Assembly (NCBI GenBank): GCA_025055265.1
Contig: JANWXL010000026.1
Span: forward strand, 1 to 33,745
DNA from: Roseiflexus sp.
GTDB taxonomy: Bacteria; Chloroflexota; Chloroflexia; Chloroflexales; Roseiflexaceae
Direction: 5' to 3'
DNA length: 33,745 nt
The stretch's first letter is position 1. Every line of letters starts with the position of its first letter. Positions 2,529 to 14,313 of the stretch are shown in pieces. The notes beneath the pieces were generated by a model. The model saw only the letters and a list, made by a program, of their open reading frames with translations, did not search any database and was not told the DNA's origin. Made by a program: the position numbers and the translations under genes.

Positions 2529-3576
2529 CGCTTGCAGCATGCTCGGAAGAGGCTCGTTTCCGTGTGGAACGGCGTCGCGGCAGAGCGACGCCGTCACTGT
2601 TAATGACCCGTTCGATGGCGGCGTCTTCGAGGGCGACGGCAGCGGCATACTCATCGATCTGCACGCTGCGTCGCTGCCGGAGCGCCAGAATTGCGACGCG
2701 CCGGATGTCGTCGATCGTGGCAGTCAGGCGAAAATCGGCGGCAGCGCGGGCGCGCGCCGCTTCAAACAGCGCAATCTCGGCGCGGTGCGACGGGATGGCG
2801 AGGCGCTGAATGCAGTCGATGGCAAACTGCTCGGCGGCGGGATCGATCGTCACCTGGGGCAAGATCTCGCGCGCAGCGGCGATCTCCTGCTTGAGCTTGC
2901 CGGTTTCTTCGGCATACTCGGCGCGGAACACCTCGGGGTTCTCGCGGAAGCGACGCGCACGGCGGTAGATTTCCAGTCGCTGCTCACGCTCCATCAGCGG
3001 CGCCACCCACACCCGCAATCCGAAACGATCCAGAATCTGCGGGCGCAGTGCGCCTTCTTGCGGATTCATCGAACCAATCAGCACGAATTGCGACGGATAG
3101 AGGCGTGTCATCGGTCCGCGACGCACAAAAGTACGCCCCTGTGCAGCAGCGTCGAGAATGGCATCAACGACCCGCGCATCGAGCAGGTTGACCTCGTCGA
3201 TATAGAGCACATTGCGATGCGCGCGCGCCAGGACGCCTTCTTCGAGCAACACCCGCTGTTGTTCGAGCGCCACGCGCTCATTGATGCCGCCAACCACATC
3301 TTCCATGCGGGCATTGAGCGGCAGTTCGATGATGCGCATCGGACGCCGGCGTTTGACCGGAGCGCCTGTCTCGTCGGCTTCTTCAACCTCAACCAGCGGC
3401 ATGACATCGAGCAGACCACGCACAGCAGTCGTTTTTCCGACGCCGTAGGGACCGATCAGGAGCACGCCGCCGACCTGTGGATTGATCAACGCCAGCACGA
3501 GCGCCGTTTTCAATTCCGCCTGACCGACAATCGCCAGGAATGGGTAGGGGAGCACCTCATCCATGCCTGCACTCAC
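2473..3576 (-). CDS. Magnesium-chelatase subunit I-type AAA+ ATPase (BchI/ChlI family)
   Basis: A 367-residue AAA+ protein. Walker A is GPYGVGKTT (42-50), Walker B is NVLYIDEVNLLD (122-133), and the segment GSMNPQEGALRPQILDRFGL (168-187) is the BchI/ChlI sensor-1 and arginine-finger region. The family usual length is about 340-370 residues. In phototrophs BchI hydrolyses ATP to drive Mg2+ insertion into protoporphyrin IX with BchD and BchH. No BchD, BchH or von Willebrand partner is beside it here, so it could instead be a paralogue serving another metal-chelatase-like or MoxR-like remodelling job. The start is GTG at 3576; its GTGA overlaps the stop of the DUF503 gene, indicating translational coupling. 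An internal Met at residue 5 is an alternative start. It is the last gene of the five-gene minus-strand operon. Confidence 0.8.
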   Translation of the reverse strand: MSAGMDEVLPYPFLAIVGQAELKTALVLALINPQVGGVLLIGPYGVGKTTAVRGLLDVMPLVEVEEADETGAPVKRRRPMRIIELPLNARMEDVVGGINERVALEQQRVLLEEGVLARAHRNVLYIDEVNLLDARVVDAILDAAAQGRTFVRRGPMTRLYPSQFVLIGSMNPQEGALRPQILDRFGLRVWVAPLMEREQRLEIYRRARRFRENPEVFRAEYAEETGKLKQEIAAAREILPQVTIDPAAEQFAIDCIQRLAIPSHRAEIALFEAARARAAADFRLTATIDDIRRVAILALRQRRSVQIDEYAAAVALEDAAIERVINSDGVALPRRRSTRKRASSEHAASVTRPTPADAAHLDRSSDT

Positions 3577-11154: not shown

Positions 11155-12321
11155 TCACTCTCGTAACCGCTGAATCTCCTGCGCAATCTCGATCACTTCC
11201 TCACGATCAGGCGAACGGATCAAATACGCATACGCGCCCATCGCCCGGTGGAACAGCGGATGCATCGGCTGGTGATGGATGATGCAGTCGCCGAAGCGCA
11301 TAAGCACTTCCTCGTGGGTCAGAGCGTAGGGACGAAACGGTTTGCGTCCAGCGTAGCAGACGTGGTACGGTCGCGTCAGCGGGGCGCTGAAGCGGTCATT
11401 GATCATCACATTCGCCCACTCGTAGTACAGGTCAATATTGCTGGCGTAGTTGAACATATCGATGCTTATTCCGCCTGGCGGGCGCATGTTGACTTCGAGC
11501 GCCACCAATCGCCCCTCGGGGGTGCGGAAGAACTCGAAGTGAAAGAAGCGTTCGCGCACGTCGAATATTTTGAGAATGCGTCGTCCTGCCTGCTCGAGAT
11601 CGGGCGGAATGTCGCGCTCAGTCAGGTAGTAAATGTCATCATCGTTGTTGACGATCTCCATGATGCCATCGCTGTACTGCATCGACGTGAAAAAGACTGG
11701 CTCACCATTCCGATCCGTCAGTCCGTCGAAGGTTTGAATCACGCCGTGGACATACTCCTCAATCAGGTACCCGTCTGGTCGGCGCGCCAGGAATGCGTCC
11801 AGATCCGCTTCATTCGTGATTTTGAATGTTTGATTGGCGCCAACGCCGATATCAGGCTTGGCGACGACCGGGTAGCCGACCTCGGCGGCGAAGGCGCGAA
11901 CCTGCGCGGGGGAACTGACCAGAACCCCGCGCGCCACGTCCACCTGCGCGCGGGTGAAGAGGCGCTTCATCTCCGATTTGCGCTTGATGCCGGGCAGATC
12001 GGCGATTTTGGGTCCTTCGATGTTGAAATCAGTGCGCAACCGCGCTTCGGTCTCCAGCCAGTACTCGTTCAGGGAGTCGACCCGCTGGATTTTGCCGTAG
12101 CGATGCGTGAAATAGCCCAGGGCGCGCAGCACCTCGTCATAGTTGTGCAAATCTGACACGCGGTAATATTCGGTCAACGCCGCGCGCAGATCGGGGTGCA
12201 ATAAATCGTATGGTTCATCAGCGACGCCGAGGACGTTCGCTCCCAGACGCCGCAGGTGCACGCAGAACAGACGCCAGTTTGGCGGGAAGTGCGGCGAGAG
12301 AAAGACAATGTTCATGGTCAT
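11155..12321 (-). CDS. ATP-grasp ligase, substrate unknown
   Basis: A 388-residue protein with an ATP-grasp fold. The N-terminal pre-ATP domain (MNIVFLSPHFPPNW, residues 3-16) resembles a Rossmann-like start. The central part shows GYPVVAKPDIGVGANQTFKI (phosphate-binding loop and Lys), YLIEEYV (adenine-binding hinge) and FFHFEFFRTPEGRLVALEVNMRPPGG, with the Glu/Asn pair that binds Mg2+. Such enzymes join a carboxylate to an amine, thiol or similar group through an acyl phosphate. The closest style is carbamoyl-phosphate-synthase-like or D-Ala-D-Ala-like peptide ligases, but the substrate cannot be named. The start may be Met1 or Met3. It is the first minus-strand gene downstream of the repeat-bearing gap, so the array lies in its upstream region. 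Confidence 0.8.
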   Translation of the reverse strand: MTMNIVFLSPHFPPNWRLFCVHLRRLGANVLGVADEPYDLLHPDLRAALTEYYRVSDLHNYDEVLRALGYFTHRYGKIQRVDSLNEYWLETEARLRTDFNIEGPKIADLPGIKRKSEMKRLFTRAQVDVARGVLVSSPAQVRAFAAEVGYPVVAKPDIGVGANQTFKITNEADLDAFLARRPDGYLIEEYVHGVIQTFDGLTDRNGEPVFFTSMQYSDGIMEIVNNDDDIYYLTERDIPPDLEQAGRRILKIFDVRERFFHFEFFRTPEGRLVALEVNMRPPGGISIDMFNYASNIDLYYEWANVMINDRFSAPLTRPYHVCYAGRKPFRPYALTHEEVLMRFGDCIIHHQPMHPLFHRAMGAYAYLIRSPDREEVIEIAQEIQRLRE

Positions 12322-12520: not shown

Positions 12521-12784
12521 CTCTCAGCGAATAAGCGAATGCGTCAACGAATAAACGAATGCGTCAACGAATAAACGAATGCGTCAACGAATACGCGAAT
12601 AGGGTCAGCGAATAAGCGAATGCGTCAACGAATAAGCGAATGCGTCAACGAATAAGCGAATGCGTCAACGAATAAACGAATAGGGTCAACGAATAAGCGA
12701 ATAGGGTCAACGAATAAGCGAATAGGGTCAACGAATAAACGAATGCGTCAACGAATAAACGAATGCGTCAACGAATACGCGAAT
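12521..12784. repeat. Tandem array of 13 units of 20 or 21 bp
   Basis: Thirteen contiguous units with consensus GCGTCAACGAATAAACGAAT (20 bp) or AGGGTCAACGAATAAGCGAAT (21 bp). Boundaries: 12521, 12541, 12561, 12581, 12601, 12622, 12642, 12662, 12682, 12703, 12724, 12745, 12765, ending at 12784. The first unit is degenerate. Each unit contains CGAAT twice. Variants follow a pattern: units 2-4 end AAACGAAT, AAACGAAT, ACGCGAAT, and units 11-13 repeat that order, suggesting duplication of a block of about 60 bp. There are no spacers, so it is not CRISPR. The in-frame TAA codons and the 20/21-nt length argue against coding. The array lies about 200-460 bp upstream of the ATP-grasp gene. A protein-binding iteron or minisatellite are possible. 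Confidence 0.95.
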
Positions 12785-12795
12785 GGACGCTGATT

Positions 12796-12839
12796 ATTCG
12801 TTTATTCGCTTCCCCATTCGTTGACCCTATTCGTTGACC
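12796..12839. repeat. Inverted copies of the array unit
   Basis: Right after the array, ATTCGTTTATTCG (12796-12808) is the reverse complement of CGAATAAACGAAT, and ATTCGTTGACCCT (12816-12828) plus ATTCGTTGACC (12829-12839) are reverse complements of AGGGTCAACGAAT. Together they can pair with the final direct units to form a large hairpin or cruciform. Confidence 0.9.
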
Positions 12840-12979
12840 GCGAGACCTGCGGGTTCCTTCCTCACCCCCGCGCAGTCGGGCGCGGCGTCGAGAAAGGAGT
12901 ATTACGTGCGTCGTCACTGCGTGAGCGTCAATGAATCAGCGAACAGGAATGAATGCTGCTACACGCCGCGCGTTGCTCA

Positions 12980-13048
12980 CCTCACGCCTCGCGCCTCTCG
13001 TCTCTCGCCTCTTGCCTCTCGCCTCTCGCCTCTTGCCTCTGCCTCTCG
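12980..13048. repeat. Heptamer tandem repeat, consensus CCTCTYG
   Basis: Ten consecutive units from 12980 to 13048 (mostly CCTCTCG and CCTCTTG; one unit is 6 bp) give a nearly all-pyrimidine plus strand. It ends 5 bp past the stop codon of the glycosyltransferase gene (minus strand), so on that strand it is a purine-rich 3' tail. It resembles in form the heptameric short tandem repeats known from cyanobacteria. The 140 bp between this and the inverted copies (12840-12979) hold no clear feature. Confidence 0.9.
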
Positions 13049-13053
13049 CTTTC

Positions 13054-14313
13054 TCATTCCACCACACGCGCAATGGCTTTCACTGCACGTGCAACGCCGT
13101 CCTCAGCCTGGATCAGACGCCCAATCGCAGCAGCGCGCGCCCTGATATGCTCATCTGTCGCTGCGGCAATGGCATGCGCCAGGCGGTCCGGCGTTGCGCG
13201 GCGACGCAGCAATGGCGGCGGTCCTGCGCCGAGCGCGGCGACGCGCGCGCCCCAGAAGGGTTGATCGATGCCGACCGGAACCGTAATCGTCGGAACGCCA
13301 GCACGCAGGCTGGCGGCGGTTGTCCCGGCGCCGCCGTGATGAACAGCGGCGCTAACGCGCGGAAAGAGGAGGCGGTGCGGCGCATGCGGCACAACAAGAA
13401 CGTCGCGTCGACCGGCTGCCAGGCGTGCGACATCCGCCAGACCGAACAGAATGCCGCGTCGCTGCGCCAGGCGAAGCGTTTCCAGCGCCAGAACCATGTC
13501 ATCATGCGGTCGTCTCCCGCCCATACTGCCAAAACCAATGGCGACCGGCGGATCTCCGGCTGCCAGGAACGCCTCAATCTCCGGCGCCAGACGTTCAGCC
13601 AGGTCATCGAGGAACCAGTAGCCGGTCACGATATGGTTGGGGGACCAGTCGTCGGGTGGCGGCACGACGTGCGGGCTGAAGCCATAGACGAAGGGGGCGC
13701 CCGACATTCGCGCCAGCGCGAAGGGGTTCAGCGGCGCCTGGCGCGGACTGGGCGCGCGCGCCCGCCAGTGTTGCAACACGGTTCGCCATGGCAGCCACGT
13801 GGCCAGTTCGACTGCCATGTAACTCAGACGGCGGGCGCGCGCGCCCAGGCGCAACGTCACCGGCAGCAACGGCGACGGAAAACGGGTCGTCGGCGTGATC
13901 GGCTGTAGCGGCGCCCAGATGCATGGGATGCCAAGCGCAGTTGCAATGAGTTGCCCCCAGCATCCTGCCAGTGACACGATCAGTGCGGCGCTGTCGTGGC
14001 ACACCTCAGTCGCCGAGTCCAGCAGGCGGGCATAGACTGCCTGCGCCTGGCGGATGTAGCGGATCGTGGCGACGGCGCCGCGCACCACGCCGCGATCGAG
14101 GGTCAGCGCGGCGTCATCGTGAAGAAGCAGATCGCTGGGATTGCCTTCGATACGGCGAAACGCCAGACCTTGCGAATAGACCAGAGGCGCAAACTGTTCG
14201 TGGGTCGCAACCGCAACCGCGTAGCCAGCGTCGTGCAATCCTCTGCCGAGCGCCGCCAGCGGCCGAACGTCGCCCAGCGTTCCGCTCGCCAGGATCGTGA
14301 CGGTCCGGCGCAT
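13054..14313 (-). CDS. UGT/MGT-type glycosyltransferase
   Basis: A 419-residue GT1-family (GT-B fold) enzyme. The N-terminus ILASGTLGDVRPLAALGRGL is the family opening seen in sterol-glucosyltransferase-like and antibiotic-glycosyltransferase enzymes. The C-terminal domain has the nucleotide-sugar motif HHGGAGTTAASLRAGVPTITVP followed by DQPFWGARVAALGAGP. It would transfer a sugar from an NDP-sugar to a lipid, sterol-like, carotenoid or secondary-metabolite acceptor. In phototrophic Chloroflexota, carotenoid glucosides are one candidate, but this is inference. It begins 9 bp after the yggX stop and is probably co-transcribed with it. Confidence 0.85.
   Translation of the reverse strand: MRRTVTILASGTLGDVRPLAALGRGLHDAGYAVAVATHEQFAPLVYSQGLAFRRIEGNPSDLLLHDDAALTLDRGVVRGAVATIRYIRQAQAVYARLLDSATEVCHDSAALIVSLAGCWGQLIATALGIPCIWAPLQPITPTTRFPSPLLPVTLRLGARARRLSYMAVELATWLPWRTVLQHWRARAPSPRQAPLNPFALARMSGAPFVYGFSPHVVPPPDDWSPNHIVTGYWFLDDLAERLAPEIEAFLAAGDPPVAIGFGSMGGRRPHDDMVLALETLRLAQRRGILFGLADVARLAAGRRDVLVVPHAPHRLLFPRVSAAVHHGGAGTTAASLRAGVPTITVPVGIDQPFWGARVAALGAGPPPLLRRRATPDRLAHAIAAATDEHIRARAAAIGRLIQAEDGVARAVKAIARVVE

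Follow-up and report, generated by a model that had tools for sequence, protein, structure and literature searches.

A CGAAT-word array in Roseiflexus as a probable locus of a dispersed intergenic satellite

The tandem array at positions 12,521–12,839 of the window, i.e., of the whole 33,745-nucleotide stretch of Roseiflexus sp. DNA analysed here, is best explained (at a probability of about 0.72) as one locus of a non-coding satellite that is scattered over intergenic DNA, is specific to its lineage and expanded in situ. With moderate confidence, we regard a hairpin-type (REP-like) element as the seed of this satellite, and, as far as the sequence can tell, the array likely does not function as an origin, a segregation site or an RNA. 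The seed (a single unit in one sister species), the local expansion (13 units) and a genome-wide burst are all readable from the sequence, and sister species of the clade differ 100-fold in copy number.

Architecture and folding of the array

Thirteen direct 20/21-bp units, TCARCGAATNNRCGAAT(GCG/AGGG/GGACG), parse exactly on the forward strand at 12,524–12,789, a length that stems from a metagenome-assembled genome (MAG) of 604 contigs and may be mis-assembled. The units are composed of 8-nt words (CGAATAAA/AAG/ACG) and 12/13-nt words (CGAATGCGTCAA or CGAATAGGGTCAA). Tandem Repeats Finder reports a period of 20 at 12,524–12,785 (12.9 copies, 91% matches, score 397), and an 81-bp period outscores it (429, 92% matches), which indicates that multi-unit blocks were duplicated within the array. 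Units 1–4 follow the order a-b-b-c, units 5–8 the order a-d-d-e (a block of 81–82 bp), and units 11–13 repeat units 2–4; the ordered, block-duplicated variation described in an earlier note on this DNA is thus borne out. The last direct unit is connected by an 11-nt spacer or loop, GGACGCTGATT (12,785–12,795), to an inverted copy, and a counterpart of this spacer is kept as GGGTGCTGAT at the orthologous site of Roseiflexus sp. SKYB12. The inverted copy lies on the reverse strand at 12,796–12,826 (letters ATTCGTTTATTCGCTTCCCCATTCGTTGACC) and matches the dispersed core, GGTCAACGAATGGGGAAGCGAATAAACGAAT, letter for letter over 31 nt. A second, partial inverted copy, GGTCAACGAAT, occupies 12,829–12,839 of the same strand (letters ATTCGTTGACC).

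The 732-bp intergenic space harbours 26 CGAAT, 4 ATTCG and 13 CGAATNNNCGAAT pairs, and no such pair occurs in the remaining window. In 1000 dinucleotide shuffles of this space CGAAT was found 2.4 times on average and the CGAATNNNCGAAT pair at most once, as against 13 in the genuine sequence, and hence the 13 direct units followed by inverted copies, as first noted, are confirmed. The space also contains a CTCGCCT heptamer array on the forward strand (12,976–13,049), the polarity of which equals that of the CGAAT array. On one side lies the reverse-strand gene of an ATP-grasp protein (11,155–12,321), which turns its 5' end towards the array, such that the array is located upstream of this gene, 207 bp from its start codon. 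On the other side, and upstream of the array, lies the reverse-strand gene of a GT28/EryCIII-like glycosyltransferase (13,054–14,313). Pfam assigns the four neighbour genes to SbcC-like, ATP-grasp, GT28/EryCIII-like and AlaDH/PNT proteins. The array is situated between genes, its units are contiguous without unique spacers, and its variants recur in blocks; accordingly, a CRISPR array was rejected, and the initial view that the element resembles neither CRISPR nor a gene holds.

Folding predictions distinguish the direct part from the whole element. Transcribed from the minus strand and including its cap, the element folds better than shuffles (z = -5.0), and its end can adopt the hairpin type CGAATAAACGAAT-loop-ATTCGTTTATTCG, which is found in several Chloroflexales genomes. 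The suggested pairing of direct with inverted units is therefore feasible. Taken by itself, the direct array is less stably folded than its shuffles, whichever strand is considered (z = +5.1 and +1.7), 51 arrays yield mean z values of +2.4 (CGAAT strand) and +1.3 (ATTCG strand), and an Rfam search of the array returned no match. Since direct arrays fold worse than shuffles and Rfam is silent, the proposal of a structured RNA with a repeated stem is not supported. At one orthologous site, the hairpin of core and inverted copy, loop included, is kept in two species (L184 1372, L039 2957).

A dispersed family with shared positions and variable copy number

The genome to which the window belongs (G000; 4.03 Mb in 604 contigs, 83% complete) yielded more than 200 BLAST matches, spread over about 45 contigs, and it carries 399 CGAATNNNCGAAT compared to 2 for a reversed control pattern, as well as at least 40 CGAAT arrays. 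Counts were obtained from pattern searches and retrieved stretches, and genes were called with a custom codon-usage script. Among the 80 sites examined, i.e., 40 arrays of the own genome (the best matches of the search rather than a random sample) and 40 sites of SKYB12 (G003), none lies inside a gene; all are intergenic. G003 is equated with SKYB12 on a 100% match over 1300 bp. From site to site, the neighbouring genes mostly encode unrelated proteins, except for orthologous pairs and some remote homologues. About nine own-genome arrays are located at contig ends (L019, L021, L022, L023, L027, L035, L036, L038 and L041), and as the assembly breaks at arrays, the copy number given here is a minimum. 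Such breaks, together with the 604 contigs and the 83% completeness, might also suggest that a repeat-rich MAG was wrongly assembled or binned; this explanation is extremely improbable and largely refuted, given that the family occurs in independent assemblies including SKYB12, and at orthologous positions.

The arrays share a grammar of short words, all of which start with CGAAT. Among 696 spacings, 39% measure 8 nt, 38% 12 nt and 10% 13 nt. The 8-nt words follow the consensus CGAATRAR (CGAATAAA and AAG, GAA and GAG variants), while the 12/13-nt words (48% of the spacings) include CGAATGGGTCAA, CGAATGCGTCAA and CGAATGGGGAAG. Combinations of these words generate array periods of 20, 21, 32, 40, 42, 45, 46 and 52 bp or longer. 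The single-unit sites of SKYB12 define a common core, GGTCAACGAATGGGGAAGCGAATAARCGAATGG, which is about 33 nt long and beyond which the flanks are little conserved. Most sites comprise direct copies only, and inverted words were found in 6 of 40 own-genome arrays and 4 of 40 SKYB12 sites.

The earlier note had ascribed to the units a spacing of about two DNA turns and had considered an iteron-like protein-binding cluster or a replication or segregation site. The spacing is correct for the window array, yet it belongs to this array alone, because the periods vary among the arrays of the family (21, 32, 40–46, 52 bp and longer), and helical phasing was accordingly rejected. A protein-binding cluster of the iteron or chromosome-organising type would be in keeping with the regular spacing of the window array, and numerous genome-wide sites could serve a nucleoid protein. 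However, the spacing depends on the array, no rep or par gene was recognised among the four scanned neighbours, and the at least 40 arrays reside in unrelated intergenic spaces. Moreover, the orthologous site is array-free in the congeners G001, G002, G004 and G005, and a general chromosome function is unlikely, because arrays are absent in G001 (0) and nearly absent in most of the family. Taken together, we consider such a cluster very unlikely, whether for replication or for segregation.

Comparison with relatives argues for local expansion of the satellite. SKYB12, the nearest array-rich relative, bears exactly one unit, GTCAACGAATAAGCGAATGGGTGCTGAT, at the orthologous site and no inverted copy. 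In G001 and G002 both flanking genes are kept, and the spacer between them is short and array-free; in G004 and G005 the neighbours are different and there is no array. G001 is a closed genome of 5,801,598 bp, which we take to be RS-1-like (Roseiflexus sp. RS-1). The position and the ATP-grasp neighbour are thus common to the window genome and its closest array-rich relative (with one unit in the latter), whereas at the level of the genus neither the number, the spacing nor the presence of units is conserved. In G001 and G002 the glycosyltransferase gene still adjoins the ATP-grasp gene; in SKYB12 it is apparently missing from the interval that separates the array site from the following gene (L180/L201).

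Thirteen orthologous pairs of own-genome and SKYB12 spaces share the position of the array and differ in the number of CGAAT (30 v 2, 39 v 9, 42 v 8 and others). The own genome exceeds SKYB12 in 13 of 13 pairs, a proportion biased upward because the own-genome loci were best matches, and nine of these pairs surfaced because both samples were array-selected. The other four stem from SKYB12 stretches retrieved regardless of arrays, and there, too, the SKYB12 array is shorter or decayed; the genome totals point in the same direction. The CGAATRARCGAAT pattern was counted 353 times in the own genome, 138 times in SKYB12, 46 times in G004, 5 times in G005, once in G002 and not at all in G001, while 20 other family members contain 0–1 each. 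Across 82 Chloroflexales genomes, single species show bursts of 139, 71, 61 and 36, and their sister species have none to few. Seven orthologous spaces in G005 are array-free, but the DNA between their genes is taken up by different sequence, in many cases by other repeats, such that they show no readable boundary of a target-site duplication.

These patterns are compatible with a mechanism of three steps. First, the core GGTCAACGAATGGGGAAGCGAATAARCGAATGG, sometimes joined by an inverted copy into a REP/MITE-like hairpin, would have been scattered through the intergenic spaces of one Roseiflexus clade; the dispersal is observed, and its agent is presumed. Second, the 8-nt and 12/13-nt CGAAT words would have multiplied in place, four-unit block duplications included, leading from one unit in SKYB12 to 13 units here. 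This multiplication is apparent from the orthologue comparison, and replication slippage or unequal recombination between CGAAT words are its candidate causes. Third, the arrays would persist because intergenic DNA presumably tolerates them, and no sequence-specific function of the window array would be needed to account for the data.

Known repeat systems and the search for a mobilising agent

The cyanobacterial STRR consist of degenerate words in tandem that keep their intergenic positions and vary extensively in length between relatives. The window array best matches dispersed short-word intergenic repeats of the STRR, TAACTGA or GGGAATC kind: its family consists of degenerate tandem words, forms at least 40 arrays with 0 of 80 sites in genes, and shares positions with variable numbers in the 13 pairs. 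The GGGAATC/GGGGAYT heptamers of Xanthomonas and Nostoc likewise keep their intergenic positions and vary widely in length between relatives (PMC4692102); these heptamers form a G-quadruplex and have no hairpin core, in contrast to the CGAAT family. TAACTGA direct repeats occur in Beggiatoaceae, Cyanobacteria and Bacteroidetes, and resemble the CGAAT family as short-word, direct, intergenic repeats with many sets per genome, a bias in orientation relative to genes and a patchy distribution across phyla (PMC4679880). Yet, they are heptamers mostly placed right at start codons (PMC4679880), whereas the CGAAT words measure 8 and 12/13 nt, lie at variable distances from start codons and also occur as inverted copies. 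Within the same order, Chloroflexus aurantiacus harbours scattered, species-specific non-coding satellites (Fam_1_14_23 and others) and, with 76 satellites (14.4 per Mb), ranks first among the bacteria listed (PMC6749651). The likeness to the CGAAT family lies in short, scattered repeats; unlike for the CGAAT family, the section consulted mentions no connection of these satellites with a hairpin core or with strings of heptamers (PMC6749651). Plasmid iterons are also direct repeats of about 20 bp in an A+T-rich array. The CGAAT arrays differ from them in their dozens of chromosomal copies, in a variable period (20, 21, 32, 40–52 bp and more) rather than a fixed helical spacing, and in that no rep or other initiator gene adjoins the window array.

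REP/BIME palindromes carry GTAG or CGTC tags, and the CGTC families lack a dedicated transposase (PMC3733652). Short intergenic palindromes of patchy abundance are common to these elements and the CGAAT family. A REP/BIME element would have a palindromic unit of 20–40 bp; in the CGAAT family, hairpins occur in relatives and at the end of the window array, but not at most sites. The array might represent a complex, BIME-like cluster of a mobile palindromic element moved by a transposase. In line with this idea, CGAATAAACGAAT-loop-ATTCGTTTATTCG hairpins are present in several Chloroflexales and have related loops within G051, the patchy bursts are typical of mobile DNA, and the window array possesses an inverted cap. 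However, direct tandem arrays dominate, most sites display the direct arm only (with inverted words at just 6/40 and 4/40 sites), the arms consist of CGAAT words, and in G031 and Roseiflexus the loops vary from site to site. A GTAG tag is absent from the core; many units have GCGTC or GGTC in front of AACGAAT, though not as a fixed tag. RAYT genes were sought with PF01797, a RAYT protein and NF047646, followed by a search for CGAAT pairs beside them. Such genes are present in the genus, their number does not track that of the arrays, and adjacent CGAAT pairs were absent from all 30 RAYT loci inspected in nine genomes. Mobilisation by RAYT was therefore rejected, and these searches yielded no mobilising enzyme for the core. 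The CGAAT family does not fully fit the definition of a REP, and transposition of such an element is a rather improbable origin of the array. A phage or plasmid origin was rejected as well, since patterns in IMG/VR viral contigs, phage collections and plasmid collections gave no match. In Paucibacter sp. KBW04 (L090) an ATTCG double pair (2531–2563) is situated beside a RAYT-like gene (2609–3490), the sole case seen.

Polarity and strand bias

Of the sites between co-directional genes, 30 have ATTCG in the sense of the genes and 9 in the opposite sense (p = 0.001), and upon removal of orthologous duplicates the ratio is 25:9 (p = 0.009). The CGAAT arrays and CTCGCCT-type heptamers are co-oriented in 88:1 cases in the own genome and 63:2 in SKYB12. 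A purely neutral model of the satellite must account for these ratios. The co-polarity suggests that both word types spread jointly as composites, or that a strand-specific process governs both, and the strand bias could arise from selection, replication direction or a regulatory role. Together, co-polarity and strand bias turn the spread of bacterial short-word repeats into a testable question. The CTYGCCT words show a bias in the same direction (16:6, two genomes combined), and as other word families show nothing, a general strand law was rejected.

The sense bias is the main reason to keep a regulatory alternative, according to which arrays of 5' regions, present in mRNA as ATTCG repeats, would be bound by a post-transcriptional regulator or would adjust expression through the number of their units. 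The position of the window array upstream of the ATP-grasp gene would fit, the direct arrays are unstructured on both strands and therefore accessible, and a cis-regulatory role has been proposed for TAACTGA repeats (PMC4679880). On the other hand, arrays are not clustered near start codons (the distance is 207 bp for the window array and varies elsewhere from 3 to several hundred bp, a range that led us to reject start-codon proximity), occur also in convergent spaces (9 sites), have mostly unrelated neighbours and are missing in most congeners that retain the gene. A transcribed cis-regulatory repeat is thus unlikely, and the dispersed satellite remains the preferred reading. As to selection as a source of the strand bias, we may speculate that in CGAAT sense the core (GGGGAAG...CGAATG) resembles a ribosome site followed by ATG.

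A further, doubtful proposition is that an undescribed, strand-polar process writes short words (CGAAT, CTCGCCT, CTCTGTG) into bacterial intergenic DNA, oriented relative to transcription or replication. The same process would yield CGAAT hairpins and arrays in Chloroflexota, Patescibacteria, Omnitrophota, Planctomycetota and Bacteroidota, and the arrays of the window genome would be strand-specific, unstructured 5'-region sites.

Besides CGAAT arrays, the intergenic spaces of the genus contain heptamer strings of the CTCGCCT/CTTGCCT, CACTCGT/CACTCGC, AACCCCT, GTTCTCG, CGTTCAA and AGGTTGC types (e.g., window 12,976–13,049; L024 about 2700–3050; L245 3030–3275 in G005), and orthologous spaces of different species hold different word families. 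Strings of CTCTGTGTNCTCTGTGNCTCTGTGGT with fixed polarity often follow CGAAT arrays (L013, L207, L213, L214 and L222). Direct/inverted ACGAATNNACGAAT hairpins are found in many copies in MAGs of Patescibacteria, Omnitrophota, Planctomycetes and Bacteroidota (L080 6112–6172, L067, L081, L086, L102, L104, L120, L089, L093 and L131), and their occurrence across phyla may reflect homology or convergence. The middle letters of these hairpins are group-specific, AAA in Chloroflexota and GCA in Bacteroidota.
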